25,214 nucleotides of DNA. It comes from Nannochloropsis salina CCMP1776 (Eukaryota > Sar > Eustigmatophyceae > Eustigmatales > Monodopsidaceae). The notes beneath the pieces were generated by a model. The model worked only from the letters and a program-made list of their open reading frames with translations. It was not told where the DNA came from and did not search any database. The stretch spans positions 13,094 through 38,307 of the forward strand of contig SDOX01000118.1 of the NCBI GenBank assembly GCA_004565275.1, given 5' to 3'. Positions within the stretch are counted from its first letter, which is position 1. Each line of letters starts with the position of its first letter. Made by a program: the position numbers and the translations under genes. Positions 2,910-21,054 of the stretch are shown one piece after another.

Positions 2910-4988
2910 ATGTTCGACGCAGGCCTTGCTCACGAGTCGGGTAACCGAGGAGACCCGTTTTTCACCGCCGGAGCTCCCGGACCGCAGCCTATTGAAAAAG
3001 AGATCCATTATGAGTTTGCGCCTGAGCTGAATACGGAATTGGATGGTCGTAATCACAGATTCACCGGCCATGGGAACGACACAGTCAGCAGCAGGGGCAA
3101 CGGCCGGGATGGTTCACGGAGTAAAGACATGAATTCTTTCCTCCTGGTGCCGATGCCTGAGGACCAGATTCTTCCAGTTCCCCGGATTTCTCACGACTCC
3201 CGCCTCGACGATGGGAACAGCTTCTCGGCCTCTTCACCCGCGCGTCCCGCTTCTGTCCAGGTTTCCTCTTGTCCCCTGGTGCGGTTACCACACTCTCCTG
3301 CCCTACCCCCCTCCTTTCGTCTTGCCGCAGGACACGTCCTTCGTTCCGCGGTGACGTCTCACGCCTACAGGATCATTCGAAGCCTCATTCCCGCCTCCTC
3401 CCATAGCCCCTACCGACCTCCAACTGCCCTCTATCTTGCTACCCCCTTCCCGTCGAAGCCTCTGTCCTTGGGGCCAAGACGAAGCGGGACATATCCCTCC
3501 TGCCAAACGGGGGACCCGGACATAAGCCGCCCTTCGCAGTCGAAATGCGTGGTCATCAAGGTGGGAATCTGCCTGGAATGTCGCACCTTATTCAAGCAGG
3601 AACACATCAAAGTTTCCAAGCATTTGACCCTTCTCTTTCTTCTCCCTCTCTCCTTTTTCTTCCCCTGGATTTCCCTGGCGTAGGTCACAATCCACGGTCC
3701 CTCTTGGCCTCATTGCCTCCCTTCCGACCCGCCACTCGGAGAGTTGGCAGCTGCTCACATACTAAGAAGTTACAGCCACGGCCACAATGGCAATCCCAGC
3801 AGCCTTGGCCCTGGCCGAAGCAATGGGAGCTGTCACGATCCATCTTCTGCCCATGTAATTCCACTCTTGGATGCGCTCGCTGACGACGACTGTGTGTACC
3901 TTGTCTACCCGTATGCCTCCGGTGGGGACCTCTTTGACTTCGTGACCAAGTCGGAGGGAGGGTTGTCAGAAGAGACCGCGCGGGCCTTCTTCGCCGACAT
4001 GGTCGGGGGTTTACGGTACTTGAAGTCCAAGGGATTGGCCCATGGGGATGTCAGCTTGGAGAACGTGGTGCTGTGGGAACAGGAGGAAGCGGTAGAAGGA
4101 GGGAGCGCAGGGGGGGAGAAGGAAGAACGAGGGCGGCCGCGGAAACGTCGGCCTGTCTGTCGTTTAACAGACTTGGAAATGGCGCGAAATCTTTCCAACG
4201 GTTCGGGCCCATCTGTGGCCCCCTTGGGAAGACGGACGGTCGGGGGAAAGAAAGGTTATGTCGCGCCCGAATGTGTATTTGGCACCGTGGTGGACTGGGA
4301 AGCGGCGGATGTATGGAGCCTGGGCGTCTCTCTGTACACCATGTTGACGCGCCATCCCCTCTACACTGACCCAGAGGATTCGGGCTTTGAATTGCTGTGT
4401 CGAGGAGAAGCCCGGCGGATGATGGAATTTTACAGAGACGTGTACAGCTTGGAGATCTCGGAGGCTGCCGTGGACCTATTGGCGTGGATGTTGGCGCCAA
4501 ATCCAGCGGGACGACCGCGCCTGGAGGAAGTGCATGAGCATGCCTGGCTTGATGGAGAAGGGGGGAAGGCGCTTGGCTCGACCGAAGGAGGAGGATCCTC
4601 TGGAGCTTTTTACGTTCAGAGGGCGTGTGCGAAGGAGGAGATGGATCCGGGATGGGAAGGAATGCTAGGTCGACGGCCGACGGCGGACAAGGCTATGGAG
4701 GAGGCACACTTGGATGTTGTTTTGGAGAAAACTCTCACCGATGATACGATGGAAAAGACCCTCCCTGGCACGCCCTCCCTCACATGGGACTTGTCTTCTG
4801 CATGGACGCCTGCGACCACCCCCGGCAGCATTGGAAGCATTTACACTAGCAGCAGCAGGAGCAACAGCAGCAGTGACAACCATGGTTGCGAGAGTGATCA
4901 CACGATCAGAAGCAAAGATGACGTGGCAAATAATATTTTTACACCTGTGTTAATTTCAAATTACGAAGAACTTGCCATGGGGCAGTAG
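2910..4988 (+). CDS. Atypical protein kinase K1 (HGDVSLEN/DLE family), two exons
   Basis: Model: exon 1 2910-3560, phase-0 intron 3561-3683 (GTGGGA to a GCGTAG acceptor), exon 2 3684-4988; 651 residues. The domain runs CVVIK (beta-3 lysine, codon 3558-3560), PLGEL (candidate alpha-C glutamate, 3741-3743), the hinge YLVYPYASGGDLFDF, the catalytic loop HGDVSLENV (from 4041), DLEMAR (from 4170), GYVAPE, then ADVWSLGVSLYTML and HPLYTDPED. The catalytic Asp and Asn and the Mg-binding Asp are kept. HRD is HGD, the loop Lys is Ser, DFG is DLE, and there is no GxGxxG loop; beta 1-2 appears to be the YRIIRS segment. About 28 charged residues sit between the catalytic loop and DLE. The tail is Ser/Thr/Asn-rich with poly-Ser from CAG/AGC repeats. 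It is probably a Ser/Thr kinase of a stramenopile CAMK-like group, or possibly a weak or pseudo-kinase. The ATG at 2910 is the first in frame, but a pyrimidine tract ending in AG directly before it leaves an upstream exon possible. Confidence 0.85.
3561..3683 (+). other. Phase-0 intron in K1, directly after the beta-3 lysine codon
   Basis: It opens GTGGGAATC and ends in a pyrimidine-rich stretch followed by GCGTAG. Removing it joins CVVIK to VTIHGP and on to PLGEL in the same frame. Its length is 123 bases, a multiple of three, and the only in-frame stop is the TAG that forms the acceptor. K2 has an intron at the same residue. Confidence 0.75.
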
Positions 4989-5890
4989 TGTCACAAGTAG
5001 CAGCAGTACTACCCGCATGCCGAGTGGTAGCTCACGACGCGGAATACATGGTCACTCTAACTGCAATTAATTTGAGGGTTACAGTAGCAATGTATCGGGC
5101 AAAAGCAGCACTCAAAACGGCATTAGTTGCGGTAATGACACCCAGAACAGTCGGGATCAAGAAATGGGCGATACAAAAAAAAGATGTATGATTTTTGAAC
5201 TTTGCAGCTGCGTGGCGCGGGGTCGTGAGGATAGGGTAAAGATCGGTGTCTACGGAAAAATAACAACAGAGCTGGGGAGAGGGAGTCGAAGCAAGGCACT
5301 CACGAAACGGCTTCTGCTTTCATGTATCAACAGAGACTTTAAAACAGATAAGGTCGACGGGGGGGGTTAATGTTTCAACGGTACACAGAATGAGACAAGG
5401 GAGGGAAGAGAGAAATTCTACGGAGAGACTTGTATTGACGTGCCAAATCGTCTCGCTCGTGGAGCATGGCAGTATAATGATAAATCATGCGCAGAGAAGT
5501 GCAAAGAACCATCGCGTCTCCTACATGTGCACGTAAATGAATGATGAACTTCGATTCGCATGTTCGGGACGAAGATGAGAAAGTTAAGCTAGTAGCAGTG
5601 GGACTCTGCGACACAATGACGCCTGCAATGCTCAGGCATCAGGGCTTGCGGGGAAAATTGACAGGCACATGCTCGGCCGCTCTATGCTCAAAACATTTTG
5701 AGTAAAGATGTGATTGTGGGCCAAAGAGAAAAGGTAGAAGGGTATAAATGCGGGAAGGAGCAAAAAATGATGGAACGGTATTGAGCATGTGCAAGCGATA
5801 AATTTGAATAGGCTATGAGTTCGCATGAGACGAGAGTTGAATGATGCCATTTTGTAGTCGATTGCACGTGGCAGCATACGAAAATGTTCA

Positions 5891-5908
5891 TGGTTCAGCA
5901 CTGAACCA
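5891..5908. repeat. Perfect short dyad, 8-base arms with a 2-base centre
   Basis: TGGTTCAG, CA, CTGAACCA. The centre is too short for an RNA hairpin loop without opening a pair, so a dimeric-protein site or chance is likelier than a structured RNA. Confidence 0.4.
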
Positions 5909-7721
5909 AAACCAGGGGGATAGCATCCCTGAGGTGAAGAAGCTTTTACTTAAAATGAGCCATCGGCTTCGCTGGTAATATATGGGGCTGGGGCGTGCGG
6001 GCATGGAAAGAAACGATGATTTGGAGAACGAAAAATTGTGCGTTTCGTACTATGTTACGTATGTTACAAAGAATCTCAATTCGAAATGGGACTACAGTAC
6101 CCAAATATTTTTCTCGCAACATCGGGAACAGCAAATCGCGTTCTCCCGGTATCGTAGCTCATGAGAAAGAAGAAAGCATCGTTGCACGTCCGACAATGCG
6201 AGGAGCACAAAGGACTCATAACCCCATATACTCCAGACATTTCTACGCTTAAGCAACAACGACTTGAAGAAGTACACAGAGCAAAAGAAGAAGACTTAAT
6301 ATATAGATAATATGCCATAGAGCTATAAATGTGTTCTTAAATAAAGGAAAGAATACATGATGAATGCCTCTTTTGCATGTACCGTGTTTGTATTCCCTCT
6401 TTTATCTCGATCAATGCTATGATATCAGAGCTCGCCGGCGAGGTATCATACGTCACACCCCATAACGTGACACCCGAAGAAGGCGATGATCACGGAAAAC
6501 GTCTATAAAAGTAATGCTGCCTTCGATCGGTCTGTCAAAGTCTGCCGCTGAATTTACTTGAGATATGGCATCATTCCATATGCGACTTCTTTTTGGATTT
6601 CTCGCTGCTTGTCGTGATCTTGCTGGAAACACTATACACGTGCTCCCTTGGTCCAAGTTCTCGATTCAACATTTCTTTCCACTAGCATGACAACTCCTGT
6701 GAACAAGTGGTAAAAGGCTTATAAACTAGACTGTACACCGCTAGGTTCCCTGCTGGCAAGCAGCCGGACAGGGCGTCGGCCTCTGTGAAAGGAATTTTAG
6801 CGTTTATGAGGATAGCGGTACATGGTGGGGAGGTGCCCAGACCAGGGGAAAAAGTAATAGGAAAAAACGAGGGAGGAGAGAGTTGAAGGAAGGGGAGAGA
6901 GGGGGGGGGGCTAAAGGTGGTTTGGGATGGCTTTTCAAAGGACGTGACTGGAGGAAGCCTGCAGAAAGCACGTGGGACAAGAGTGGAATCCATGTCAACC
7001 TCCCCCCCGCGAATCAAAAGACAACAAGCCCATCAATAAATCAAAATTGCGTGCAAGCACGAATCATTTTTGTTCTCTCTCCATGTTCCTCATTCATTCA
7101 CGCCGGGGGGGAAACCATATTTTTCGTTTCCGCGTCCCGTCGGTGCCATGTGTCACGCCGCCCCACTCTCACAGTCGGGGCGGTGTGCATGCACCTGGGC
7201 CGGCTGGAGTGTTTAGTCGACTGTCCTCTTCACCAGCAGAGGTCCCTGTTCAGGGTTGTTGACGCATTCTTCGGACATCGTGTGTCGCACACATGTTTTC
7301 TCAGATATGTCCTTTCTCTTGATTACGCCTCACGACTTTGGGCTCTTTCCACGCACTCAATGCCTCCTAGCCAGGCCTTCTATGGTCACCCTCATATAAT
7401 TTCTACCTCCCACAATGTGACAATCTCGGTTCGTTCGCCTTTCTTTCCTCTTTCATCTTTGTTATCGTACTTGGAATTTCGGCAGCATTGCTACCCTCTC
7501 TCTTTCTTATCTTATCTTCGTATTTCTCTTTGGGTGGTTTTTGTCATGATTCTACGCTTCCTATCGCCTTGTCTCACAAGTCCGTGCGAGCAACCATTTC
7601 TTCTTTCGAATCTTAATGACCGTTAAAGTCATCTCCAGCTGGTCTGACGACTCCCTACCGCCTTCCCCTCCTAGGCCAACCAACTTCTCTCTTATCTTTC
7701 CTCCCTTCCCTTCCATCTGCA

Positions 7722-7881
7722 GCGACAATGGACTGACATTGCTGCGGCTGCTTTTTTTTCGCTCCATGTCACAGGTTTCTGATGTAAAGTAAGTAATTCT
7801 TGCCGCCCGGGCTGGAAATGTGTAGGGCACAGTTTGCTCTTGCTGGTCTTGCGACAATGTACTGGCATTGCTGCTGCTGCT
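7722..7881. repeat. Near-identical 31-base repeat pair 129 bases apart
   Basis: GCGACAATG at 7722 and GCGACAATG at 7851 each lead into (A/G)CATTGCTGC and a GCTGCT run. The two units differ at about 3 of 31 bases. This is consistent with a small local duplication seeded by a CTG microsatellite. No coding frame over it is recognised. Confidence 0.55.
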
Positions 7882-8398
7882 GCCGTCTGCGTCGTGCACA
7901 GCATTTATAATAATTGTAGTAATAAATAAGGTTCCGCTTCTGTTCTCGGAGCTGACACTCTTCCGGGATCGTATATTGCTTACAATATTTCACATAGCAG
8001 TCTTCGCCGCTCACGCTGACCGTTCGCGTTCTCTGTCCTACGTTCCTCTAGGCATGGTAGGGGCTGGATGCGTTGTCTGTTTGGCTGTTCTAGATATTAG
8101 GGGACCCCAGTTTTCGAAAGACGACCAGAACCAAATTATCCGGCACTCTACCCGAGACTCTGGCGGAGTTGAAGCCTCCTACACCGAAAATGACAGGGCT
8201 AGCTGCGGCCTTGTAACTCTTTCCCCACGCCGTCCCACGGAGCCAGCTTGGCTTCCTCGCCTCGGCAATTTTCGCGCCATTTTTTCCCCCTCCTCTTGCC
8301 TCCTGTACCTATCGCCTCTTGCCAGTCTGACGTTCCTTCCACTCAGGAAGTCCGTGTACTGCTCCCCTTCCTTCCCTCCCTCTGTGCGTCTGAGCTCG

Positions 8399-11293
8399 TT
8401 ACCGGCCTTCCAGGCACCGAAAGGAGGAAGCCGTAAAGGCCGTCGACGGGATGTGTCGGGCGGCGTGGGGAGGGACGGAACCGGGGGGGATAGGTTGAGG
8501 AAAGGCAGGCGAGGCCGGAAAGGAGGAGAGGAGGGAAGGCCGGAGCTCCAGAGACCGGCGGGGCGTGGCCAGGGTCGAAGGTGAGGCGGCGGTGCCGATA
8601 CAGGAGGAGGGAGGGGGGGAACATAGGTTGTCACACTCCTGTAGGGCGTGGTAGGCAGGGTGATCGGAAGAGGCCGGGAAATCCATGCACGCATCCCACC
8701 GCTGTCGCCCTGCTTGACTCGGGCTGCACCCGCCGACCTGGGTGATAAGGGACGGAGGTGCCTGCCCGCATCGCCCGCGGGGCCCGGCGCTATCCTGGCT
8801 TCTCCCTCCCCCTCCCCAGCACAAGGGCGTTTTCTGCGCCGCCTGGTGGGATTCCGGGGGCAACGAGGTGGCGGGGGAGGGGGAGGAAGGGAAGGAGAAG
8901 GGGGCTGGGGAGGTGGTGGTCGCCGCCGAGTCCCACAAAGGATCGGTAGGACACGGGCAGGCCGGCAGGTCCAGGGTCGGGGGAAGGACCGAGAGGGGAA
9001 GCGCCGGAGCCCCTCCCTCCTTATCGCCCCGTGCGGAGAGCGAGGGCGTGGAAAAAGGCGAGGCAGCCCCGGTAAGGGTGTCCATGCCGGCTTCGCTGCC
9101 CGAAAACCCCCGAGCAGGATCGGGACGAGACGGAGAACGCGTTGGGGAAAGAGAGGAAAGCGGCGGTGCCAGAGGCCTCGACCACAAGGGTAGATCGACC
9201 CGCCCTCCTTCTTTCCCTCTTTCCCGCCCTGCCTCGGCCCTTTCCTGTCCGTCCTCCGCCGTGCTCTGTCCAAGGGGTTGAAGGCAGATGCGACGCTGCC
9301 CCACGGAGGCGGTGTCGTGGTGCTGGCAAAGCCTTTCCCGAGGAAGCCTCGCCGTCCTGCGGCGTGCGCCCCGCATCCTCCGGGTATGTTCGGGGACGAA
9401 GTGGCCCTGCCCCTGATCTCCGGTGCGAGAAGCCGCCGTGTCCCAAGAGACTGCTCCCTCGACCGCCACGGCGTCATTCTCCAACACCTGCCCATTCCCT
9501 TCCATCTCCTCCTCCTTCCCCTCGGCCGACCCCGCAGGCGGCGACCACCTTCCTTCCTCTCCCTCCTCTGCCCCCTCCTCCAGACCAAGCCGGGCTCCCT
9601 GCAGTAGCTGGTACGGCAGGGACTTTATCGGCGTCGCCTCCTGCGTCACCCAGGGGTGTGCCATGATCTCTTGGAGGGTTGGTCGGGCCGCCGGGTTCGC
9701 ATCGAGCATGGCGATGACGAGGGAGAGGGCTTCCGCGGGCAGGTCGATGCCATATTCCCGAGCATAATGTCCGAGGACCTCGGCAATCATCCCGTGGCCC
9801 AGCAAGTTGAAGCAGGGATCCTCCGGGTCGGCGTAGAGGGGCCGGCCGGTCAAGAGGATGACGAGGCAAATGCCCAAGGACCACACGTCCGAAGCCCCCC
9901 AGTCCCGCAGAGTGCCGCGGACGATTTCAGGCGAGACGTAACCCGGTTTCCCCCCCGCGATCGTCAGGAAAGGGTTTGAGAGGGCACGGGCCGGGGGGGA
10001 GCCGTCCAGTGGGGTCCAGGAAGGGGCGGAGGTGCCGATGGAGGAGGAGAAAGGGGAGGGGAGGGAAGGACTCGAAGCTTCAAACGCCTGGCCCCAACTC
10101 GACCCGCTTTCCCCGTATTCCACCTCCATCGCAGCCTCCTCCTCCTCCTCCTCCTCCTCCTCCTCTGCCTCCTCCAAATGCCGGGCCATTTCCAAATCGA
10201 TGAGGTGACATGTCGGCCCTTCCCGCTCCCCATCGTAGGACAGCATCACGTTCTCCAAACTGACGTCTCCGTGGCTGATCCCCCGCCCGTGCAAGTCCTG
10301 CAACGCCCTCGCCATGCCCCTAAAGATCCCTCGCGCCTTGGTTTCCCCGACCCCGTGCGGGTGCTGGGCCACGTAGTCGAAGAGTTCGCCCCCGTTCGCG
10401 TAGGGAAAGACGAGGTACAAGTAGTCCGGGTCGGCCCATGCTTCTATCAAGGGGATGACACCGACAGGACCTTTCTGCGCCTTCTCATCTCCCCGGCCGA
10501 GCAGAAGGGGAGAGGAGGCCAGGTGGAGGTGGGCTGCCAGCTCTCCCATGGGCTTGCCTTCCCCCAAGGAGGACTGGACTGCCGATTGATGAATCACCTG
10601 GAGCGAGACGAAGGCGGAGGGAAGGAAGGAGAAAGGGGAGGAGGTAGAAAGGGTAAGGAGCAAAGAAAGGGCGTGTGGAGCGTGGGTTTTGGGTCCTATC
10701 CGTGGCGGGCCTTGTCTGAGACAAGGCAGAGAGATACTATTGAAGGTGGAAGACATAGGAGGGAGGCAGGAAAGAAAGGCAAGAGGGAGGAAAGAAGAAG
10801 TAAAGATATGGAGGGAGGGACATACCTTGACGACGACTCTATCATCTTCGACATGTGATTGGGTAGGGAAGGCGGGGATCGATGCAGTGCCGTGCTCGGG
10901 CGTGGCCAAGACCACATAATTGGGATATTTACAGTGATTTACCAGGGAAACAAACCGGTAGCCACGCCCACTGATGGGATTTCTTAGGACGGTAGGCATG
11001 GGGCCTGAGAATGCGGCCCGTCCCGGCTGGAACACCTCATCGTGGAAGGACGAAGGGAGAAGGGGCTTCCCAAAGAAGGAATAGCGAGGATGTGGGGCAG
11101 GAGCATGCCGGGACACATCACTTCTGTGCTCAGGCAGGGAAGGACATGAAGAAGACGACGATAAAGGTTGATACTGTAGGCATGAACCTTCTCGGCGGCG
11201 CCTTGACACCTGCTCTTGTTGCGCTTGGAGCTTTTGGGCCCTGGCCATGTCATGGAGGAGGGATGACAGCTTTCGGATCTGCACATCGGTCAT
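8399..11293 (-). CDS. Atypical protein kinase K2 (HGDVSLEN/DLE family) with a long Pro/Ser-rich tail, two exons
   Basis: Model: exon 1 11293-10826, phase-0 intron 10825-10598 (GTATGT to CTCCAG), exon 2 10597-8399; 888 residues. The start MTDVQIRKL is the first ATG in frame. The N-terminal 30 residues look helical (Leu/Gln-rich). The kinase domain follows: RGYRFVSL in place of a glycine loop, RVVVK (lysine codon 10826-10828), PMGEL, YLVFPYANGGELFDY, HGDVSLENV (10273 down to about 10247), DLEMAR (about 10200 down to 10183), GYVSPE, SDVWSLGICLVILL and GRPLYADPED. A poly-Glu run from a GAG microsatellite follows DLEMAR. After the domain comes an acidic patch with GRWSP, then about 380 residues rich in Pro, Ser, Ala and Gly. 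All three minus-strand frames are open in that tail region because of high GC, so the tail and stop (TAA at 8401-8399) are less certain than the domain. It is a sister of K1 by its intron position. Confidence 0.85.
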   Translation of the reverse strand: MTDVQIRKLSSLLHDMARAQKLQAQQEQVSRRRREGSCLQYQPLSSSSSCPSLPEHRSDVSRHAPAPHPRYSFFGKPLLPSSFHDEVFQPGRAAFSGPMPTVLRNPISGRGYRFVSLVNHCKYPNYVVLATPEHGTASIPAFPTQSHVEDDRVVVKVCPSLHIFTSSFLPLAFLSCLPPMSSTFNSISLPCLRQGPPRIGPKTHAPHALSLLLTLSTSSPFSFLPSAFVSLQVIHQSAVQSSLGEGKPMGELAAHLHLASSPLLLGRGDEKAQKGPVGVIPLIEAWADPDYLYLVFPYANGGELFDYVAQHPHGVGETKARGIFRGMARALQDLHGRGISHGDVSLENVMLSYDGEREGPTCHLIDLEMARHLEEAEEEEEEEEEEAAMEVEYGESGSSWGQAFEASSPSLPSPFSSSIGTSAPSWTPLDGSPPARALSNPFLTIAGGKPGYVSPEIVRGTLRDWGASDVWSLGICLVILLTGRPLYADPEDPCFNLLGHGMIAEVLGHYAREYGIDLPAEALSLVIAMLDANPAARPTLQEIMAHPWVTQEATPIKSLPYQLLQGARLGLEEGAEEGEEGRWSPPAGSAEGKEEEMEGNGQVLENDAVAVEGAVSWDTAASRTGDQGQGHFVPEHTRRMRGARRRTARLPRERLCQHHDTASVGQRRICLQPLGQSTAEDGQERAEAGRERGKEGGRVDLPLWSRPLAPPLSSLSPTRSPSRPDPARGFSGSEAGMDTLTGAASPFSTPSLSARGDKEGGAPALPLSVLPPTLDLPACPCPTDPLWDSAATTTSPAPFSFPSSPSPATSLPPESHQAAQKTPLCWGGGGRSQDSAGPRGRCGQAPPSLITQVGGCSPSQAGRQRWDACMDFPASSDHPAYHALQECDNLCSPPPSSCIGTAASPSTLATPRRSLELRPSLLSSFPASPAFPQPIPPGSVPPHAARHIPSTAFTASSFRCLEGR
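10135..10164. repeat. (TCC)n microsatellite encoding poly-Glu in K2
   Basis: Read on the minus strand this is GAG repeated about ten times, giving a Glu run in the activation-segment insert of K2. A purine-strand triplet repeat of this kind is prone to length change. Confidence 0.85.
10598..10825 (-). other. Phase-0 intron in K2, 228 bases, in frame and without a stop
   Basis: The donor GTATGT follows the AAG codon of RVVVK. The acceptor CTCCAG precedes VIHQS. The intron is a multiple of three and open in the coding frame, so a retained form would add 76 Ser/Leu/Phe/Pro-rich residues between beta 3 and alpha C. Comparison with K1, which has an intron at the same residue, is the main reason for calling it an intron. 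Confidence 0.75.
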
Positions 11294-11320
11294 AGTGCTG
11301 TGTGGACAATAATGTGCGCG

Positions 11321-11328
11321 TGACGTAA
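11321..11328. promoter_or_regulatory. CRE-like element TGACGTAA upstream of K2
   Basis: TGACGTAA lies 28 bases upstream of the K2 start codon, inside the GC-poor stretch leading to it. Half-sites of this type bind bZIP factors in many eukaryotes. On the minus strand a TATAGATT stretch lies about 25 bases further upstream. A single octamer is weak evidence. Confidence 0.3.
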
Positions 11329-11691
11329 GTGAGAGCGCATTGAACAATCTATAAAATCTGCCAGAAAGCAGCTAGCTTGCAGGTACTTTTCTTCTATCCC
11401 CCGGGTGTCGCTGAATGTACATAGAGAAGAGGAGAAGAGGACATACTCAGAAACGGGACGCGGCGGGGGCAGAAAAATGACTAAGGGTGCCAAGCCGGAA
11501 CAGTGAGCGAGGAAAGCGCTGGCGCCGAGCTTGTACATTATCGACGCAAAACAAAGTACGCAAAGGCTGTGACATAGGGCTTTTCGTCTCTCAACGCTCT
11601 CCTGTTTCTCTCGTCCTTCGTACGTCTGCGTACTTTGTAGTTGAGGTCTCGGAGAGTCCATCTTAAGAGTATCGAGAAGAAGCCAGGTCTG

Positions 11692-11733
11692 TCTTCGGCT
11701 GAGGAGGGTCCAGCCGAGGCCCTATTTCTTTTT
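11692..11733 (+). other. Hairpin followed by a T-rich run
   Basis: CTTCGGCTG and CAGCCGAGG pair (one wobble) around a 9-base loop, followed within a few bases by TTTCTTTTTTT. It has the form of an intrinsic or Pol III-type terminator on the plus strand. No plus-strand RNA gene is evident upstream, so function is unassigned. Confidence 0.25.
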
Positions 11734-12941
11734 TTGGTAATTCATTCGTGAAATGCGGATCTTCAAGCACGATGATGCAGCATAGTCACACAATACATGT
11801 AAAGCGATATTTTTGTTAAAATGGCATGTTTTCTGGTGGCAAATTGCCCCTTAAATCCTCAAAGAACCAGCGGGGTATATTTATCTCTCGTGAAGATGCA
11901 GCCGTACTATTGACCGGACATTGCAGGCACCCGCAGAAAAGATTTTCCGCCGCCAAAAAACATCCCAAAAAGCGAACGTTTATGTCGACAGGACGTACAT
12001 TAAGTAAGCGAGGTGTCTATTACATTTTTGGAATCACCCGTCCATCATGTAAATTTTTCTGGGGAATCTGCTCCCCGGACATTGCCTTGACATACCATCT
12101 GCCGGCGTTCGACCCCGTGCCGAAAAAACAGACCATACAGCCTCCTTACGAGAAGATACAACAGGCCCGGCGGCACGTAGGTTTTGGTGAAGCATGTACA
12201 CGACATGGCCTCCGTGACCAATATGATCCTTCTCAGGATTCAATGCATGCGCAGTGATACGCTTTCTTGTTTTCCCCCTTGTTCTATGTTAACGGTGGCG
12301 TGACTCGAATCATAAAAAGAAGGCAGGCGCCGGTCCGTCACTGTCAACATGCTCATCAGAGGGAAAATATGCCTTGGGTGCCATCATCATGAATAGGGTT
12401 AGCTGACCTTCCCTACTGTCAAATTCTACATGGATGTGGATCATCAACATTTCCATTTATTTTTAAAAAAGAAAGTGGTCAACGAGACGACGTCCTTATC
12501 GAGCACACTGCTCCCCTTCTTAGTTTCGGAACAACCATTTTACGGATACAACATCGTTTATCGGAGACTGGCATTATTATTTATCTTTTGATAACTCTAT
12601 ACTTTTGTTGAGGTGTCGATGGCCGCGCGTGCTTAGCTGAGTGCAGATGCTTTCCATCCTGTCGAGTTTCCTTCACTTGAGCTGTGGCAGTCGCATGATA
12701 CGAGCTTTCGCAAGACCTGAAATGCGCTCGCAAATGAATCCCCCATCCCTCTTTTCGAGTGGAATATCGAGAATGAGAGAGACACGAGATTCAGTTTAGA
12801 AGCATTCGGAAACTAAACACCTGAATCATCACTCGTCCCAAGGTGGCCTGCCCGACTACAGATCGGGCAGATCGGAACGACTGTCCTTCTCCCCACCATG
12901 AGCGCATGTGCGGAAAAGGCAACCCTTGCCAAAGACAAGCA

Positions 12942-14228
12942 CTATACATAAGAATCGAGTATTCCTTGACGAAATGCCGCAGTGAGTACCTCTTTCGCTC
13001 TGCTGGCAAGCAAATGTGCCTTCCCTTTGTGGCTATAGATGTAGTCACCTAGCAATATCCCTTCCTCCTCCCCGTTCTCCTCCCCGTCCTCCTCCCCCTC
13101 CTCCCCCTCCTCTTCCCCTTCGTCTACCTTCTTCAATTTGTCTTTTTCCTCGTTCCCCCTTCTTTCTACTACCTCGTTCCCTCCATCCCTTCGTCTTCTC
13201 CCCTTCGCCCCCATCTCCTCCACCACGCGCTGCAATGGAAACCGTTTCATGTCGCAGGTTTCTCGCCACGCCCGGGGCAAGCCAGGCTTTTTTCGGGCCC
13301 GTTGAAATATTCCGACGCTGGCTTCTTCTTTGGCCACCGCCAACACGTAGCACCGGTATCGGTGGAAGATCCCAATGTCGACGAAAGGACAAGTAACCAG
13401 CCTGACAGGCGCCACTATTACCGTCCCAGCCGTCTCCTCCTCCAGCTCCCGGGCTGCCACGGCCGCAATCGCCTCTCTGTCTTCACTGTCTGGCTCTGGG
13501 TGTGGGCTTGACCGACCGCCCATCTCGCCCCATTCCCGCCCGGATACCCCGTCCCTCCCTTCCTCTGCCACCAAGACGAGGTCGAACTCGTCGGGGCAAT
13601 GGGAAGGAGACAACAGCAAGACTCCCGCCCCAACCACGCCTTGCCCCTCTTGGCCCCCCCCACATTTTTCACACCCTTTGCACCGCCATGCCCGCGGGTG
13701 TCCCCACTGGCAGCTTCCATTTTGACAATGTTCTCCTTCCTGGCACATCACATGCTGGTATCTGCACGCGTTCTTCCCGTCCTTCGCTTGGTAAAGGCAC
13801 CGGCCCGTCAAGCGGAGGCGTCGACAGGGTTTGGACCATTCACGCTTGTCTTCCCATGCACGCGGGTGGCCTTTCCGACAATGCTGGTAGTCGAGGCAAT
13901 CTATTCCATGGGGGCACGCTTCATGAAGGAAGGAGCATGTATAGGGCGGGGGCCCCAGACGGGTGCACCGGCCGAAGCGGAAATACGAGCAATGGCGCTG
14001 TGAAGACGAGTTTTGAAAGACAATAGGCACTGAGGATAGGGTGGAGGGGCTGAAGGGATGCAGGGATGTCGATGTACGTGAAGGAGAGAAATCTGGACCG
14101 TCTTGTCCATGAGGGCGATGCGCGTTTGCAATTTGTTTCTTGCATCCTTCCTCTCCTTCGTCCTCCGGACGCCGCCTCTTTCCATGTAGGGAGCTGCTAC
14201 TGATGTGAGTGCCATTCCCGTTACTCAT
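12942..14228 (-). CDS. CCCH zinc-finger / Nudix hydrolase fusion protein
   Basis: A single open frame of 428 residues, with the first ATG (MSNGNG) at 14228. A basic N-terminus (GKRRRPEDEG) resembles a nuclear signal. Four zinc-finger-like units follow at about 13995 down to 13690: CX7CX9CX3H, CX5CX5CX3H, CX8CX10CX3H and CX5CX4CX3H. They form two paired modules, each ending in GHPRAW. A small Cys cluster (CKGCEKC) leads to a Nudix domain: GAGVLLLSP (first strand), then a Nudix box in which E-x7-REL-x-EE is present (about 13481-13421) but the usual first Gly is Pro and the later Gly is displaced by one. The strand region HRYRCYVLAV follows, then an acidic insert (about 13130-13063) before a helical C-terminus. 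Nudix enzymes cleave nucleoside diphosphate linkages, and CCCH fingers usually bind RNA. An RNA- or cap-directed hydrolase is inferred. Deviations in the box mean reduced activity is possible. Confidence 0.85.
   Translation of the reverse strand: MSNGNGTHISSSSLHGKRRRPEDEGEEGCKKQIANAHRPHGQDGPDFSPSRTSTSLHPFSPSTLSSVPIVFQNSSSQRHCSYFRFGRCTRLGPPPYTCSFLHEACPHGIDCLDYQHCRKGHPRAWEDKREWSKPCRRLRLTGRCLYQAKDGKNACRYQHVMCQEGEHCQNGSCQWGHPRAWRCKGCEKCGGGQEGQGVVGAGVLLLSPSHCPDEFDLVLVAEEGRDGVSGREWGEMGGRSSPHPEPDSEDREAIAAVAARELEEETAGTVIVAPVRLVTCPFVDIGIFHRYRCYVLAVAKEEASVGIFQRARKKPGLPRAWRETCDMKRFPLQRVVEEMGAKGRRRRDGGNEVVERRGNEEKDKLKKVDEGEEEGEEGEEDGEENGEEEGILLGDYIYSHKGKAHLLASRAKEVLTAAFRQGILDSYV
13062..13130. repeat. CTCC/TCC-rich low-complexity tract encoding an acidic Glu/Gly insert
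   Basis: On the minus strand this reads GAG/GAA/GGG-rich codons giving EGEEEGEEGEED and similar in the Nudix domain. It is probably a loop insertion rather than an intron, because the frame is kept and the sense strand is purine-rich, unlike the introns here. Confidence 0.75.
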
Positions 14229-14787
14229 GGCAACCACAATTCTTGATCTTATATAAAGCTACCTTTACTGTTCTCGGTTGTGGGATACAAGCACATCACA
14301 ATTTAGCACGTGAACAATAAATACAAATCCCACTCCTCCCGAACAATGCGAGATATTGGCCCTGATTATTGTTCCGTCAGTCAATCAAAAGACTGGTGCA
14401 CACTGGTAACGCCGCAATTCGTAAGTATACACCCTCTCTAATAGCCACAAGGGCGGATGACGCCATGCTTCAACATGCATCCTGAAAATAACCAAGACGT
14501 TTAAAACAAACGCTTCGCGACCGCAAGCAAACCAAGTTTATATCTTACAATACCTATTTATCACCATTGGTACCATGTTCATCCATGAAATGAACCTCCC
14601 CGCGCTTAGGTATCCCAACGAAGGAAGAGTCGCCGTCCTCATTCAATCTTAGGACGGTAAATGTGTTCTATTTTTTCCCTCCTTGTACTTTTCAGGTTTG
14701 GGTCCTACCAATGCATTAAAACGAGTCTCCTGTGCTCGTTGAGCAGATCTAATTCGGGTCCCGCTTCACCTCTGTCATCCTGCATCC
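14229..14787. promoter_or_regulatory. Divergent promoter interval between the Nudix and SET genes
   Basis: It is 559 bases long and AT-richer than its flanks. A TTATATAAA element (14249-14257) lies about 21 bases upstream of the Nudix ATG on its own strand. That is close for a TATA box, since transcription would start near the ATG. No element is identified for the SET gene. No gene is seen inside. Confidence 0.4.
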
Positions 14788-16709
14788 ATGCCCACCCGGA
14801 GGCACAGCAAGAAAGGCAGCGGCGAACGTGCTGCCAAGAGGGGCCCGGTTAAGTACAAAGACACCCCCAAAATCTCAAAAGATCGGATTAAACATGTTCA
14901 GCAGTGTATATCATTTTTAAATGCCCTGGAATTGGGTCGTGTTGGACTCACCTGTCGCGCTTTGCATCTGGCAGTGACCGAATGCTTACGGTACGGGGCA
15001 GTGGGGACACTTGAAGGACAATGGGCACGACCCCCGTCCCCATTCCTATGAATCCGTCAAAAAGCCATGTCTGACATCATTCCCTCTCCCTCATTTTTTC
15101 TTTGTGCCACAATTCATAACCCTGGCCTGCCTGGATGCCCCCGGCGCTCTCTCTTTAGCTTGCTACAAACCGACATCACACGCGGCCAGTCGCCCATGCT
15201 TACGCCTTTACCTTGCGTCTCACCCCCGCCTTCCTCGGGTCTTCCACCCCTTCCCCTCCTTCCGTCCACCTTCCGATGGGTGGATTCCGTGGTGCTGCCG
15301 TCGGGAACTCACAACCGGCGCCTGCATCGCCGGGGAGGGGGGGCTGGGAGCGCGGGGAAGGGTCAGACGGAGGGGGCGGAAGCGGCGGAGGGATGTGGAT
15401 GCGATGGAGAGAGCAGGAACAGCGCAGCCCTGTCTTCGTCTTCGTCTTTTCCCCTAGTCTGTTGCCATGATGCTTCCTGTCCCTGTTACCGGACTGCCCA
15501 CAGGATCGCCCTTGTCGACGCCCCCCCCCCGGTGAACACAGCGGCAGCAACGCTGGCAAGGCCAGTATCGAGAGTATTCATAGTCCCAGTACCAGGCAAA
15601 AGAGCGACCAGGACCAGAGCAAGGGTGACCCCACCACTGCCACCGATACGCACACCATCGACGACGAAAAAGGCAGCAACAACATCGACGCCACGCCCGA
15701 CAACCATGACGTGGTCCGTCACCGCATGCCCAGCAACAGCGGTAACCCCGTGGCAGGTCAAGATGCTGACCGGCCCCTTTCCCCCACATCATCCCCATCT
15801 TCTTCAACCGCTTCCTCCTTCAAATTTGAATTTGAATGCTCTTCCTCCTGCCGTTGCCTCCCCGACCAGTGCCAACTTCGGCCCACCCAAGCGAGTGCTC
15901 GACTTCCTCTCTCCCTCGGCTATCTCCCCAAGAAAGGTTGGGGCGTCTTTTTTTCCCCGCCTCCGTCCTGTGCTCCCGCCCGCCCTCCCTCCCTCCCTCC
16001 TCACACCTTCGTTGCCGAATATACCGGGGAGCTGATCAGCACCGTGGAGGCCCGTCGCCGTCTCGCGATCTACGACGAGGTATCCGCCCTTTCTTCCCTC
16101 CCTCCCTCCCACCCTTCCTCCCTCCCTCCCTCCCCGGGGATTGGAAAGCGCACTTCCCCCCCAGCAGGGTGCACGCACGCCGTGGAGCATGTCAAACACG
16201 CGCAGGGCCACGGCCAGGCAAATGCGGCGCCGGCAGAAGTCCCCATCCTGGGCCCATGCCCCCCCCAGGAAGGGGACAAAGAGGAAAGCGGGGGAGGACG
16301 AGTGCACGCTGGCCCCCGTCCTCATTACTTGCTGACTCTCCTGGAGGAAGGCGACGATTTCTACCTGCGCACGTCCCTGGACGCCACGCATTGTGGGAAC
16401 GTCTCCCGTTTCTTCAACCACTCGTGCGACCCGAATATGTACTTGGTCTGTGTTCGGAACGGAGGCCTGCTCCCTCGCCTCTGTTTTTTCACGCAACGAC
16501 GTGTGCATGCGGGCGACGAGCTGACGTTTGCGTACGGGGAGAGGGAGGAGAACCACGCTTCGAAGGGAGGAATCCAGGATGAAAGTGGAGCTCGCTTTGG
16601 CCGGTCATGTGCAAAGGGGACACCACTGCCCCAATCACAGTCGGGCAGGCCGTGCTGGTGTGGTTCGGAGAAGTGTGTGGGAAATTTGCCGTATCAACCA
16701 GGGCTGTAA
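14788..16709 (+). CDS. SET-domain histone-lysine methyltransferase-like protein (multi-exon)
   Basis: The 3' half is clear: a pre-SET end (CSSSCRCLPDQC), KKGWGV, FVAEYTGELIS, the signature GNVSRFFNHSCDPN (about 16396-16437), ELTFAYGE, and a post-SET Cys cluster CWCGSEKC (about 16651-16676), with the stop TAA at 16707-16709. Earlier pre-SET cysteines (EGCGCDG, then CCHDASCPC at about 15465-15490) lie in another frame, so at least one intron separates them from the frame used after 15500. A phase-0 intron 16080-16268 (GTATCC to CCCCAG) would join LAIYDE to EGDKEE and restore the expected spacing. The ATG at 14788 opens a basic segment, then ISFLNALELGRVGLTCRALHLAV, which resembles an F-box helix bundle. 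A stop at 15049-15051 means it must splice onward. SET enzymes move methyl groups from S-adenosylmethionine to lysine. The pre-SET points to the SUV39/H3K9-type group. Exon borders before 15700 are not resolved. Confidence 0.75.
16080..16268 (+). other. Probable phase-0 intron inside the SET domain
   Basis: The donor GTATCC follows the codons for LAIYDE. The stretch has CCCT repeats at 16096-16134 and an acceptor CCCCCCCAG at 16260-16268. It is 189 bases, in frame and stop-free, so a retained form is also translatable. Without it the SET insert is unusually long. Confidence 0.55.
16096..16134 (+). repeat. (CCCT)n pyrimidine repeat in a SET-gene intron
   Basis: Repeated CCTCCCTCCC on the sense strand. 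The complementary strand has four or more GGG runs and could form a G-quadruplex. Confidence 0.8.
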
Positions 16710-18806
16710 ATGTTGCCAAGGACATGTGTGTTTCAAAATAAAACACATCGAGGTGTACGCTAGCCGGGCATACTTGTTCTTTGGGGGGTGTTATTCTTTT
16801 TTCGACTTGTCATGGAACTGGTTGTAAGAATTGCCTGCGGCTCGTTTCCTTTCGGTCGCTTATGTCTTTCTCTCGAAAGAAAGGCACCGTGATCGAGTTG
16901 TGTGCACGCATGACAGCATCATACGTATACAGACTGCGTATAAAGATCAAACGGCACACCGAACCGCATGGCAAAATAAATATGACATCAAATAGATAGG
17001 TTGCGTCTCTACAGTGTCCTGTGCACTTTTGTAACACACCACGTGGACATTATGTTGACACGCCTGCATATAAGAGTCTACCCAAAGAAACAAATGTAAA
17101 ATGTTTTCCAATCTCTCTTCCCCCCCATGTGGTCTTGCCGGAAAAGTTCTTATCTTCTTCAGATCAAAAGCTTTTCGATTCATCGATTTGCGGCACGTTT
17201 TTTTCTCCACACCGTTCATAGCGGCCACTCCCGTTCACAGGGCAGCGGATTGCGCTGCTACCGTGAAACCATCATAGTCTCTATCGTTCTGACAAATAAA
17301 AAAGAAAATTCGTAATCGACTCGAAGGCAAAAGGGATCGTCTGACAGATATATGAGCGATTGGAGATGTAAACTCCTCCTACAAGTTGTGTCTCCCAGCG
17401 ATGTGAAGGAAGAACATCGTTGATGCCTCATCTGCACGAAAGTACTAAGGACAGGGTGACATAGCCGGTGACCACACGATCAGCCCACTTCATGTCGCTC
17501 TCCCACCTCCCCGTGACATGGTGTAACAGAACTGATCCGATCAGTGGTGCAAAATAGGGCTCATGGGCGCCATACAATGCGGGTGATCACTCAACAACTT
17601 CGCTGTTTGATACGCTGCACATTAGTCCTTAGCCCCAACCCCCTGAACTCATATAACGCCGAGGACATGGAGTCATATCCCTGGACGACGGCAGCAACCG
17701 TGCCATGTGTGAGCCATGAGAAGACCCTACGCGAGAAGACATGCCACGTACCACCTACTCGAACGAGTACATGCCAAGCAGGAGAGGTGCCGAATGTGCC
17801 GAGAATCTTGAAGGTGTGCTAGGCTCATGCGTACTTCTCGTGCTTTCACCGAATATCGGCCGTATAAGACACAAAGCAACGGAAACACTCGCTAAGCATC
17901 CAGATTTGCAGCCAAACCTTGAAGACCCTGTCGCTTTTTCCATACACGACGGCATGCTGGCATGAAAAGCGCTGAGAAGATAGCGGTACAGGCGGATATT
18001 TCGCTCAGAGATAGAGGGACTCTCAGGTTCCGACCAGAGTGCATGTGCCGAGAGGAGAAAAGAACACGTACGCATGGTTTTCTCTAAGCTTATTTTTGCT
18101 TTTAACACACTGTTTGGACACTTGCTACTTCATTTGCCACTCGCACTACGACTACGATGACCAAATGGTTCCTGGCGTAGGTGAACCCTGGCAATGGGGC
18201 CACGGTCTTTTTCCTTGGCGGATTTGCCTTCGGCCGGGCAATGGAAAGAGTGTCTCTGGGAGGCTTTCGGCAAGTTCTCTTCCGAGAAAACCTTGACATG
18301 CTTTTCTCATACAGGTGGAGCATGTAACCAACACGCACGTGTTTCTCTGAAGCACTTTCTTCTCTGTGCGACAGGTGTGGGGCATATAGGCAATCTAATA
18401 TCCTACCCTAGGCGGATATCTCGCATCTCCAGCGTTTTTCACTTCTCCTCATCATATTGAGCGACATAGCAAAGCACTCGCTGCCTCGCCTGCCTCGATT
18501 TTTGATATGCAATGGCCCTCAACACTCGTTCGCACGCGTGCGCGGCCTTCCCTTTCTTTCGTGGGGGGGTTGCCGGCGTACCTTGTTAGATTTTGACATC
18601 CAATTCCCTACAAATGGCCACCATAATGCTTTTTATATGAAAGTAACCGTCGGGCACATTTTATGCGTGAGGTTGCAATGTCTCCTGGAGTGTACGTCCC
18701 AAAACTCAGGTCCTTTCCCCCCCGGTTACCCTGTACCTCAACACACGCACTCATCCCTCTGTATATTCACCTTTTCATTTTACAGAGACCTAACAAAGAT
18801 AAAAAA
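16710..18806. other. Interval between the SET gene and K3, no recognisable gene
   Basis: About 2.1 kb. Frames are short (under 120 codons) on both strands without recognised domains. Two 15-base copies of AGGCGGATATyTCGC lie at 17990 and 18410. A pyrimidine-rich stretch ending TTTTACAG at 18778-18785, just before the K3 ATG, could be a 5' UTR intron acceptor. Confidence 0.45.
16737..16742 (+). terminator. AATAAA polyadenylation signal of the SET gene
   Basis: A canonical AATAAA lies 28 bases after the stop codon. It sits in the loop and 3' arm of an imperfect stem (ATGTGTGTTT / AAAACACAT). The short distance to the stop is plausible for a compact algal genome. Confidence 0.45.
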
Positions 18807-21054
18807 ATGCACGCCACGCACACCCACCACTTTTTCCGGCGTGACGAGGACGGTATGGTCCGTTCCCCGGTGAAGCGTGTGGATGGTGTCAGCCTGCAAG
18901 GACACCTCCATGCCTTGAACAATGAAGGTTTCCATGAGGATGTAAATCGCACAACCAGACACATACAATGCGCGTCAAACCTTGTCGAAGCCTTGAAGAC
19001 GACAAAGAAGAGCAGGAGAAGTGGCCGTACCCCCCGTAAGACCGATGAAGGCCTCACCATCGGCAGCAGCAATAACTTCGACAGGAGGGAAGGGAGCACA
19101 GGGATCAACGCACGTCCTAGCTTTCATTGCAATGACAATAACGCGCCTCGGCGTCCAGCGCTCCCACCGATCGACCTCCGCTTCCACAACCACCGCGACG
19201 TCAGCCAGCTCGTCGGCATTGGCACCTCTTCCCCTCCCTCCCCCTCCTCCTCCACTACCACCTCGTCCGCTACCTCCCCTTCCCATGCCTGCCTGTCCGC
19301 CTGCGCCTTCCTCACCAAAGCCAACGACTCGCAGTTACCCTTCCTCTCCGCGCCCCCTCCCTTCCCCCGGACCTGCCACTGCCCTGCCTCTGCCTCCCTG
19401 GCCCGACCGAGCATTCCCCAAACGAGAAGGAGCCCAAGCCGCCTGCCCGACACCTACACAGGCAAGCTCGCCACCATCCACAACGTGCACAACAACGATC
19501 CCACCGCCGGGAGCGTCCAAAGTACCTCCTTGCCTCGCATTGCTCCCCTCTCCTTCACCCCTCCCCCGCCACCCTTCAGCAATTTCTATCCTGGACGCAC
19601 ACTCCAATTCTCTGCCTCCCTCCGCTCCTACCGCCTTCTCCACGGCGTCGGTGGCCTCGATCATTGCAAGCCTCAAACCCACGTGATGGCCGCCCAGGCA
19701 CTGTCCTCGACCGCCGCCTCCCCCAAGGTCGCCGTCAAGATAGTCCAGCAAGCCTGGATCCAACGACATGCCTCCCCGTCCCCGCCCTTCTCTCCCCTCG
19801 CCGCGCCCTTCCTACCCAGTATCTGCAGGCCGGTGGGTGAGCTGGAGGCGCTGCGACTTCTCAGCTACAGCTCCGCTCACCCCAACGTGATGCCCGTGCT
19901 TGACATCGAACAGGACAAGGTACGCCTTGCCCTCTTTTCCTCCTATCCGCCCTCCCTCCCTCCCTCCCTCCCTCCCTCTCTTTTCTCTTCCCTCTGTCCC
20001 CCCATGTCTCTTGTAGCTTGCCTCTATGGAGTAAAAAAGTCGCAACTCCGAGCAAACAAGCCACCCTGGGTGTTGGTTTCCCGATTGTACGTCTCGCCCC
20101 GCCCTTACGCAGTCTCGTCCTGCTCCTCTTCCCCTCCTCTTCCCACCACAGGACAACCTATACTTGGTCTTCCCCTACGCAGGGGGAGGGGAGCTCTTCG
20201 AGACGGTTTCGGCCCATCCCCAGGGTCTCCCGGAATCAACGGCCCAACGGTTTTTCAAGGAAATATGTAACGGTTTGGCGCATTTGAAAAGGCACAATTT
20301 GAGCCACGGAGACGTGAGTTTGGAAAACGTGATGCTCTATGATCCCGAGGAAGGAGAGAGGGGAGGAGGGAGGGAGGGAGGGAGGGAGCGAGGGATGGGA
20401 AGGAGTACAATGGGGATTTCGTTTGGACATGAGGATTCGGCGGAGGGGGAGGAAGAAGAGGAGGAAGCGCCCGAAGGAGGCTTAGACAGGCTCCACTGTC
20501 GCCTGATCGACTTGGAAATGGCCCGCTACGTGCCTCCCTCCTCCTGCCCTTCCTCTCCTTCCTCCTACTTCCCCATGGGCGGAAAGTCCAGTTACACTGC
20601 GCCCGAGGCATTCTACAACCGCCCGTCTTCCCCCTACCCCCTGGACCCGTATGCCTGCGACATTTGGGCCTTGGGTATTTGTCTCTACATGCTCTGCACC
20701 GGCCGGCCGCTGTACCAAGGTCCTGAGGACGACGCTTTCCTCCTTCTGGCGTCGGGAGGGGCGCCGGGGCTCCTGAGCCATTACGAGGATGCGTACGGGT
20801 TGACTTTGCCGCGCTCGGTCCACAAGCTCTTGGCTGGCATGCTCTGCCCCGAAGGAGACCAGCGGATGACGCTGGAGGAGGTGATGAGGTGGAAGTGGGT
20901 GCAGGCGGGAGGGAGGGAGGAGGAGGAGGAGGAGGAGGAGTCCTCGGCCGGCCGTTGGTCCCCAGCAACAACAGTGGAGGACGAGGGGGAGGAAGGGGAG
21001 GAAGGGGAAGAAGGTGTGCGGTGCGAGGCATTGCCTATCTTGGTCTTCCCGTGA
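18807..21054 (+). CDS. Atypical protein kinase K3 (HGDVSLEN/DLE family), two exons
   Basis: Model: exon 1 18807-19919, phase-0 intron 19920-20151 (GTACGC to CACCACAG), exon 2 20152-21054; 671 residues. The first ATG follows an A-rich leader. A Ser/Pro/Thr-rich region of roughly 270 residues precedes the kinase domain: RSYRLLHGV in the glycine-loop position, KVAVK (lysine codon 19737-19739), PVGEL, YLVFPYAGGGELFE, HGDVSLENV (from 20305), DLEMAR (from 20509), SYTAPE, CDIWALGICLYML and GRPLYQGPED. The catalytic residues match K1 and K2: Asp and Asn kept, HRD changed to HGD, DFG to DLE. Between the catalytic loop and DLE is an insert of about 50 residues, partly from a GGGA repeat. The beta-3 to alpha-C linker is about 14 residues longer than in K1 and K2. 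The tail is acidic with GRWSP, as in K2. The intron lies at the hinge, unlike K1 and K2. Confidence 0.85.
19920..20151 (+). other. Phase-0 intron in K3 at the kinase hinge
   Basis: The donor GTACGC follows DIEQDK, and the acceptor CACCACAG precedes DNLYLVFPY. Splicing changes the frame and restores the hinge that K1 and K2 read continuously, so it is required. It holds a (CCCT)n run at 19951-19978. Confidence 0.85.
20361..20390 (+). repeat. (GGGA)n repeat inside the K3 coding sequence
   Basis: Tandem GGGA/GGAG encodes a Gly/Arg/Glu-rich loop between the catalytic loop and DLE. The repeat unit is not a multiple of three, so a single-unit length change would shift the frame. Confidence 0.8.

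Follow-up and report, generated by a model that had tools for sequence, protein, structure and literature searches.

A serine-lysine exchange between the catalytic and P+1 loops in CAMK-like kinases of Nannochloropsis salina and in bacterial kinases

We analysed a window of 25,214 nucleotides from Nannochloropsis salina CCMP1776, which covers bases 13094-38307 of a 226,927-base contig (C11, GenBank SDOX01000118.1) in a genome of 26.5 Mb and 103 contigs. This genome gives 34 matches to light-harvesting proteins, as fits a photosynthetic eukaryote. The window contains three genes for unusual kinases, named here K1, K2 and K3. They translate across splice-like introns and match the Pfam Pkinase domain (PF00069) with 109.8, 106.0 and 77.6 bits, respectively, for a curated cut-off of 31.7. 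An earlier note, made from the letters of the window, had described them as related kinases sharing HGDVSLENV, DLEMAR and, at helix αC, PxGEL. This is borne out by the Pfam matches, by the motif positions (PLGEL in K1, PMGEL in K2, PVGEL in K3) and by a pairwise identity of 40-42% between the kinase domains. It had also correctly recognized that the catalytic Asp and Asn are retained, that the Arg of HRD is absent (HGD) and that Glu occupies the position of the DFG Gly. All three further retain the β3 Lys, the αC Glu, the metal-binding Asp of DxE, the APE Glu, the Asp of helix F and the Arg of helix I. With the HRD Arg gone, they have no classical RD switch. Outside the kinase domain a Pfam scan gave no domain in K1-K3; calmodulin-binding helices were not searched for. 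The motifs listed in the note were accurate, but the list missed the Ser two residues after HRD (HRD+2), the Lys five residues before APE (APE-5) and the absence of a glycine loop in K1 and K2. The main interest of the locus is the paired Ser-Lys exchange, which that note does not contain.

In canonical kinases the Lys at HRD+2 (Lys168 of PKA) hydrogen-bonds the Thr or Ser at APE-5 (Thr201 of PKA), according to passages of PMC10979876, PMC2604893 and PMC11196109. K1-K3 and four relatives located elsewhere in the genome, K4-K7, all have Ser at HRD+2 (7/7), where a basic residue is thus absent, and all have Lys at APE-5 (7/7). The genome has 147 Pfam kinase places, and our residue tables cover the readable segments of those that were read. 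Outside the family there are 83 such segments with a readable P+1 loop, in which APE-5 is occupied by Thr in 66, by Ser in 15, and by Arg and Val in one each. Lys never occurs there, so that within the set of kinases read the exchange is confined to the family. The sole Arg (in L077) pairs with an Arg at HRD+2, and this kinase has lost the DFG Asp. For 7/0 versus 0/59 in the aligned-domain set, Fisher's test gives p 1.3e-9, a value that ignores relatedness. A HMMER alignment of the family profile with SNRK places GK opposite GS and confirms the register. Tyrosine kinases are likewise without Lys at +2, as stated in a passage of PMC1989141; the HRD+2 Lys is therefore no condition of membership of the kinase superfamily. 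Further odd kinases of this genome read HGDLTPSH (L083), HGALRPAN with DQG (L095) and HGDIKLGN with DLN (L099), and L077 itself reads HRDVRVEN with GLG.

The family extends beyond the window. Scanned with a degenerate DNA pattern that encodes HGDxSxEN and uses an AGY serine codon, the genome gave three matches, which are K1, K2 and K3 (none with the reversed control). The wider pattern DxSxEN added one place with an AGY serine (control 1) and ten with a TCN serine (control 3). Three of these 11 places were read, as K4, K5 and K6, and the remaining eight lie outside the Pfam kinase places; K4-K7 were located through the wider patterns together with Pfam and protein searches of the genome. At least seven members of the family are thus present, of which five lie on C11, and the earlier note, which rightly treated K1-K3 as one family, had missed K4 and K5, 75-78 kb further along the same contig. 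As C11 makes up 0.86% of the assembly, the chance that two or more of the remaining four members fall on it, given the three of the window, is about 4e-4. The earlier interpretation is borne out only in part, since the signatures are not isolated: K6 combines HRDLSLEN with DFG, K7 combines HGDVSPEN with DLG, K4 and K5 combine HRDMSLEN with D[LM]G, and the Ser-Lys pair is frequent in bacteria. Given K6 and K7, the HGD and DLE of K1-K3 look like additional steps on an HxDxSxEN background. A phase-0 intron directly after the β3 Lys is common to K1, K2 and K6, in the last case by its acceptor only, since the upstream exon was not found in the stretch taken around K6. Among eukaryotes the searches covered this genome; among viral sequences, neither K2 nor an alignment of the seven members retrieved a relative. 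HxDxSxEN-type kinases are presumably also present in other stramenopiles and alveolates, an assumption of ours that serves as a lead only.

To place the family we built trees in which the columns of the catalytic loop, DFG and the P+1 loop were left out. K1-K7 form one clade with a support of 0.953 in a FastTree analysis of 193 kinase domains, with an SH-aLRT of 93 in a site-heterogeneous tree (163 rows, the bacterial kinases found by the GK motif being left out), and with 89/90 in a carefully built tree limited to 23 rows. The separate kinase families that would have spoken against the earlier proposal were not seen. Within the clade, the pairing of K4 and K5 is firm (100/100, 23 rows), and K1-K3 likely form a clade of their own, although not firmly (0.758 with 193 domains, 73/95 with 23 rows). 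That K1-K3 are three unrelated kinases whose motifs agree by coincidence, or that they form a tandem array of recent date, is hardly credible. Their spacing and their presence on both strands would suit such a reading, but the single clade in three trees contradicts chance and the identity of 40-42% disfavours a recent array. Identity, clustering and the use of both strands agree instead with the old local expansion that the note had suggested.

In the 163-row tree, K1-K7 are grouped with 33 further kinases of the alga itself (SH-aLRT 95). Of the six closest algal neighbours, two were tested and both are CAMK-type, the best solved relatives being Chk2 and CaMKI for L001, and CaMKII and CaMKI for L032. 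Those of the family itself are SNRK, HSL1, BRSK2, MELK and CaMKII when searched with the profile (8.7e-48 for SNRK), and CaMKII when searched with a single sequence (1.4e-21). Its nearest sequence relatives thus lie within the CAMK group. A search with the fold predicted for K2 gives matches to chains of AMPK, CaMKII, Chk1, Pim1 and Aurora (E values between 7e-16 and 3e-13; TM 0.40-0.48, normalised to the model); the model, in which the presumed intron was read in frame, has a mean pLDDT of 69.9, with a C-lobe mostly above 90 and a poor N-lobe.

We then examined the same positions in bacterial kinases. Searching GTDB genomes with the pattern H[GR]D[VML]S[LP]EN[VLI] gave 58 loci, confirmed as relatives of K1 by tblastn and chosen without use of the P+1 residue. 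On re-reading, three of them (L126, L135 and L154) held no instance of the motif and one (L121) held two, giving 56 instances. APE-5 could be read in 54 and is Lys in 47, Arg in 2, Thr in 2, Ser in 2 and Asn in 1. HRD is kept in 47 of the 56 instances, and none has Glu at the DFG Gly. In the converse approach, the pattern GKxxY.[AS]PE found 153 sites in five genomes; among the 30 that were read, HRD+2 is Ser in 24, Thr in 3, Asn in 2 and Ala in 1, and never Lys. As a control, the 30 top Pfam kinases of the same genomes and one more, a choice biased toward canonical kinases, gave Lys at HRD+2 in all 29 that were readable, with Thr (27) or Ser (2) at APE-5. The two positions are nearly mutually exclusive: Lys at HRD+2 goes with Thr or Ser at APE-5 in 98 of 98 aligned domains, and bacterial aligned domains with Ser at HRD+2 have Lys at APE-5 in 72 of 80. 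The 125 bacterial domains aligned come from overlapping loci in which repeats are possible, and the Ser-found and GK-found sets share a gene (L108 is L207). This overlap, together with sequence relatedness, means that the bacterial counts are not independent events.

In three myxobacterial genomes (G002, G003 and G004) the GK pattern has 54, 58 and 39 sites (none with the reversed pattern) for at least 131, 134 and 132 Pfam kinases. All 28 of these 151 sites that were read lack the usual HRD+2 Lys. Most myxobacterial kinases carry the catalytic-loop Lys according to a passage of PMC2887360, which agrees with kinases bearing the exchange being a minority class. Our literature search, which covered open PMC articles and left most subscription papers outside, did not find the exchange described. 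Searches of the same articles with the letters of the motifs found no kinase paper on HGDVSLENV/DLEMAR-type motifs, some matches being chance strings such as DLEMAR in 'Middlemarch'.

The frequency of the exchange in bacterial kinases might suggest that gene transfer from bacteria brought the algal family together with it. This is very unlikely: the seven members sit with 33 algal kinases in a tree built without the motif columns, their neighbours L001 and L032 are CAMK-type, and so are the best solved relatives of the family. A bacterial origin of the algal family is unsupported by the trees.

The features of the locus and the other members of the family are collected in Table 1. The presumed intron of K2 contains no in-frame stop, so that its retention is possible, and the C-terminal tail encoded by K2 exon 2 is long. 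Long acidic runs lie inside the kinase domains of K2 and K3. The genes are separated by unrelated ones, as the earlier note had stated: the gap between K2 and K3 holds a SET-domain gene and an open frame rich in Cys and His whose NUDIX match stays below the cut-off, both non-kinase by Pfam. Beyond K3 lie a NIF/CTD-type phosphatase gene, with a DMDECLLH stretch in an apparent separate upstream exon that has no Pfam match by itself, and the start of an ABC transporter gene.

Table 1. Kinase genes, residues of the Ser-Lys exchange and neighbouring features. Positions are those of the window unless a contig is given.
Feature	Position	Strand	Description
K1 exon 1	2910..3560	+	N-terminal region up to the β3 Lys; CVVIK 3546-3560; no separate domain in Pfam scan
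K1 intron	3561..3683	+	phase 0, immediately 3' of the β3 Lys; in-frame stop at intron end
K1 exon 2	3684..4988	+	PLGEL (αC) 3732-3746; HGDVSLENV 4041-4067; DLEMAR 4170-4187
K1 exon 2, later motifs	4242-4271; 4308-4325	+	GGKKGYVAPE; DVWSLG
K1 Ser, HRD+2	4053..4055	+	
K1 Lys, APE-5	4248..4250	+	
K2 exon 1	10826..11293	-	ends at the β3 Lys; RVVVK 10826-10840
K2 presumed intron	10598..10825	-	phase 0, position as in K1; 228 nt
K2 exon 2	8399..10597	-	PMGEL 10538-10552; HGDVSLENV 10247-10273; DLEMAR 10181-10198; GGKPGYVSPE 9926-9955
K2 Ser, HRD+2	10259..10261	-	
K2 Lys, APE-5	9947..9949	-	
K2 acidic run	10130-10180	-	after DLEMAR
K3 exon 1	about 18663..19919	+	start uncertain (ATG 18663 or 18807); KVAVK (β3) 19725-19739; PVGEL 19830-19844
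K3 intron	19920..20151	+	phase 0, shortly 5' of the hinge; site differs from K1/K2
K3 exon 2	20152..21054	+	hinge; HGDVSLENV 20305-20331; DLEMAR 20509-20526; GGKSSYTAPE 20578-20607
K3 Ser, HRD+2	20317..20319	+	
K3 Lys, APE-5	20584..20586	+	
K3 acidic run	20440-20470	+	before DLEMAR
K4 (L013)	C11:108.5 kb		HRDMSLENI, DMGMC
K5	C11:111.0 kb		HRDMSLENL, DLGMC
K6	C15:234.9 kb		HRDLSLENL, IDFGMA
K7	C95:71.2 kb		HGDVSPENV, IDLGMA
Cys/His-rich open frame	12942-14219	-	NUDIX match, 17.0 bits (cut-off 21.1)
SET-domain gene	15711-16709	+	PF00856, 59.5 bits
NIF/CTD-type phosphatase	21762-22352 and about 22620-22830	-	PF03031, 124 bits
ABC transporter, start	about 24780-25214	+	PF00005, 46.1 bits; continues past window end

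The position of the basic residue that handles the γ-phosphate is known to vary. Passages of PMC1989141 place it at +2 as Lys, at +4 as Arg in tyrosine kinases, upstream as Lys in ChaK and in the small lobe as His in Rio2, and name such relocations 'functional residue hopping'. To these sources of a basic residue near the γ-phosphate the P+1 loop would add one more. We therefore lean, with some reserve, toward K1-K3 being old paralogues of a CAMK-like family that are probably active and whose γ-phosphate Lys has hopped to the P+1 loop. In this mechanism, the APE-5 Lys would reach into the active site, where its side chain may point at the γ-phosphate, orienting and neutralising it, while the Ser at HRD+2 would replace the Thr as hydrogen-bond partner and the enzyme would remain active. 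Charge handling would thereby be made dependent on an activation segment folded in place.

A rival reading holds that K1-K3 are pseudokinases, with weak or no ATP binding, acting as scaffolds like TRIB; family and exchange would still stand. The missing glycine loop of K1 and K2, the absent HRD Arg and the Glu at the DFG Gly, found in 3 of the 97 readable kinase segments of the genome, which are K1, K2 and K3, are all compatible with it, and CASK is present among the solved relatives listed. In Tribbles the SLE sequence that replaces DFG has a Glu at the equivalent place, as described in a passage of PMC7586955. Moreover, in three of the bacterial Ser kinases the DFG Asp seems to be gone, and these are perhaps pseudokinases. 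Their APE-5 Lys is not shown, the position being Ser in L105 and L117 and unreadable in L144; Ser-type kinases thus do decay. Against this, the β3 Lys, the αC Glu, the catalytic Asp, the Asn and the metal Asp, and also the Ser-Lys pair, have all been retained in K1-K3 despite an identity of 40-42%, and the same passage of PMC7586955 gives TRIBs as lacking the metal Asp and the Asn. The retained residues speak for nucleotide binding and catalysis, and we regard loss of activity in K1-K3 as rather unlikely.

Another rival reading is that the Ser-Lys pair is a structural tie from the P+1 loop to the catalytic loop, with no role in phosphoryl transfer, and that these enzymes work without a γ-phosphate Lys as small-molecule kinases do. 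Passages of PMC4702295 describe small-molecule relatives as generally without the HRD+2 Lys, and DxE resembles the choline-kinase branch, in which the Glu is linked to the αC Glu (passage of PMC1821047). The same source, PMC4702295, argues nevertheless that a basic residue at this place is needed for protein kinase activity, and the presence of Lys or Arg at APE-5 in 49 of the 54 readable bacterial Ser kinases is not what a preference for any polar residue would give. We consider a purely structural exchange unlikely, if worth keeping in view.

Several observations weigh against a catalytic Lys relocated to the P+1 loop in active enzymes. The exchange could, as just discussed, merely hold the activation segment. 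Two bacterial Ser kinases have Thr at APE-5 (L131 and L155) and one has Asn (L158), and all three keep the DFG Asp. The control with top Pfam kinases is biased, and the test on independent branches, with four well-supported pairs that agree in 2.7 cases on average and disagree in none, gives p about 0.25. K1-K3 all bear the DFG-Gly Glu, and the glycine-rich loop GxGxxG is unrecognisable in K1 and K2 and partial (GVGG) in K3. An incomplete GxGxxG is no bar to membership of the kinase superfamily according to a passage of PMC526369; as this loop is not a strict requirement, the filing of K1-K3 in the superfamily rests on the Pfam match. Within the family, K4 has no APE Glu, reading YMDPV at this place; members need not all be active, therefore, and K4 may be decaying. 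Finally K6, with HRD and DFG, is nested within K7, which has HGD, on a weak branch (63/76); unless this branch is wrong, HGD arose twice or reverted.

More broadly, and more tentatively, the data raise the possibility of a second recurrent design of the phosphoryl-transfer site, in which an APE-5 Lys stands for the HRD+2 Lys, the two being nearly mutually exclusive, and which would have arisen at least twice, in CAMK-like algal kinases and in bacteria. Such a design might couple catalysis directly to how the activation segment folds, letting K1-K3 lose the HRD Arg and yet stay regulated. The loss of the HRD+2 Lys is readily read as degeneration of a kinase. If a P+1 Lys can substitute for it, many proteins of this kind probably function as enzymes (the seven of this family, and the 151 exact GK sites in the three myxobacterial genomes), and rules for kinase annotation would need a second template. 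The exchange also gives a clean two-residue test of the catalytic role of the lysine.

Some features of K1-K3 recall more distant kinases. HGD occurs in the choline-kinase branch, and kinship with this branch, considered on account of HGD and DxE, was rejected: K1-K3 have the APE motif, the C-lobe and the closest relatives of protein kinases. The choline kinase/FadE branch shares with K1-K3 the replacement of the DFG Gly by Glu, but there the Glu accompanies an Arg that replaces the β3 Lys (passages of PMC1821047), whereas in K1-K3 this Lys remains and the C-lobe, APE included, is that of a protein kinase. Tribbles resemble K1-K3 in having no glycine loop and a Glu at the DFG Gly (SLE). They are without the metal Asp and without the Asn of the catalytic loop (passages of PMC7586955), whereas K1-K3 keep both (DLE, HGDVSLEN), and TRIB is absent among the best 60 of 2794 solved relatives. 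The two precedents for this Glu are thus opposed, choline kinase being active (PMC1821047) and the SLE of Tribbles inactive (PMC7586955), and K1-K3 match neither exactly. The FIKK kinases of Apicomplexa likewise show a lineage expansion, clustered genes and an incomplete glycine triad (passages of PMC526369). They are named for a FIKK motif that K1-K3 lack, subdomain II reading VVIK, VVVK and VAVK; the distinction is one of motif, not of sequence comparison.

The closer likenesses concern the CAMK group, the bacterial kinases and the WNK kinases. SNRK, BRSK, MELK, CaMKII and AMPK resemble the family most, by profile and single-sequence searches and by high rank among the predicted-fold matches; the solved relatives whose alignments were read have HRDxK with GS, whereas K1-K7 have HxDxS with GK. 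Bacterial Hanks-type kinases (HRDxSPEN, GKxxYMSPE) share the paired residues at HRD+2 and APE-5 but stand elsewhere in the tree. In WNK kinases, a functional Lys is likewise supplied by another part of the active site (passages of PMC1989141 and PMC1821047). There it is the β3 Lys that has been relocated; K1-K3 retain the β3 Lys, and it is the catalytic-loop Lys that would have moved instead.

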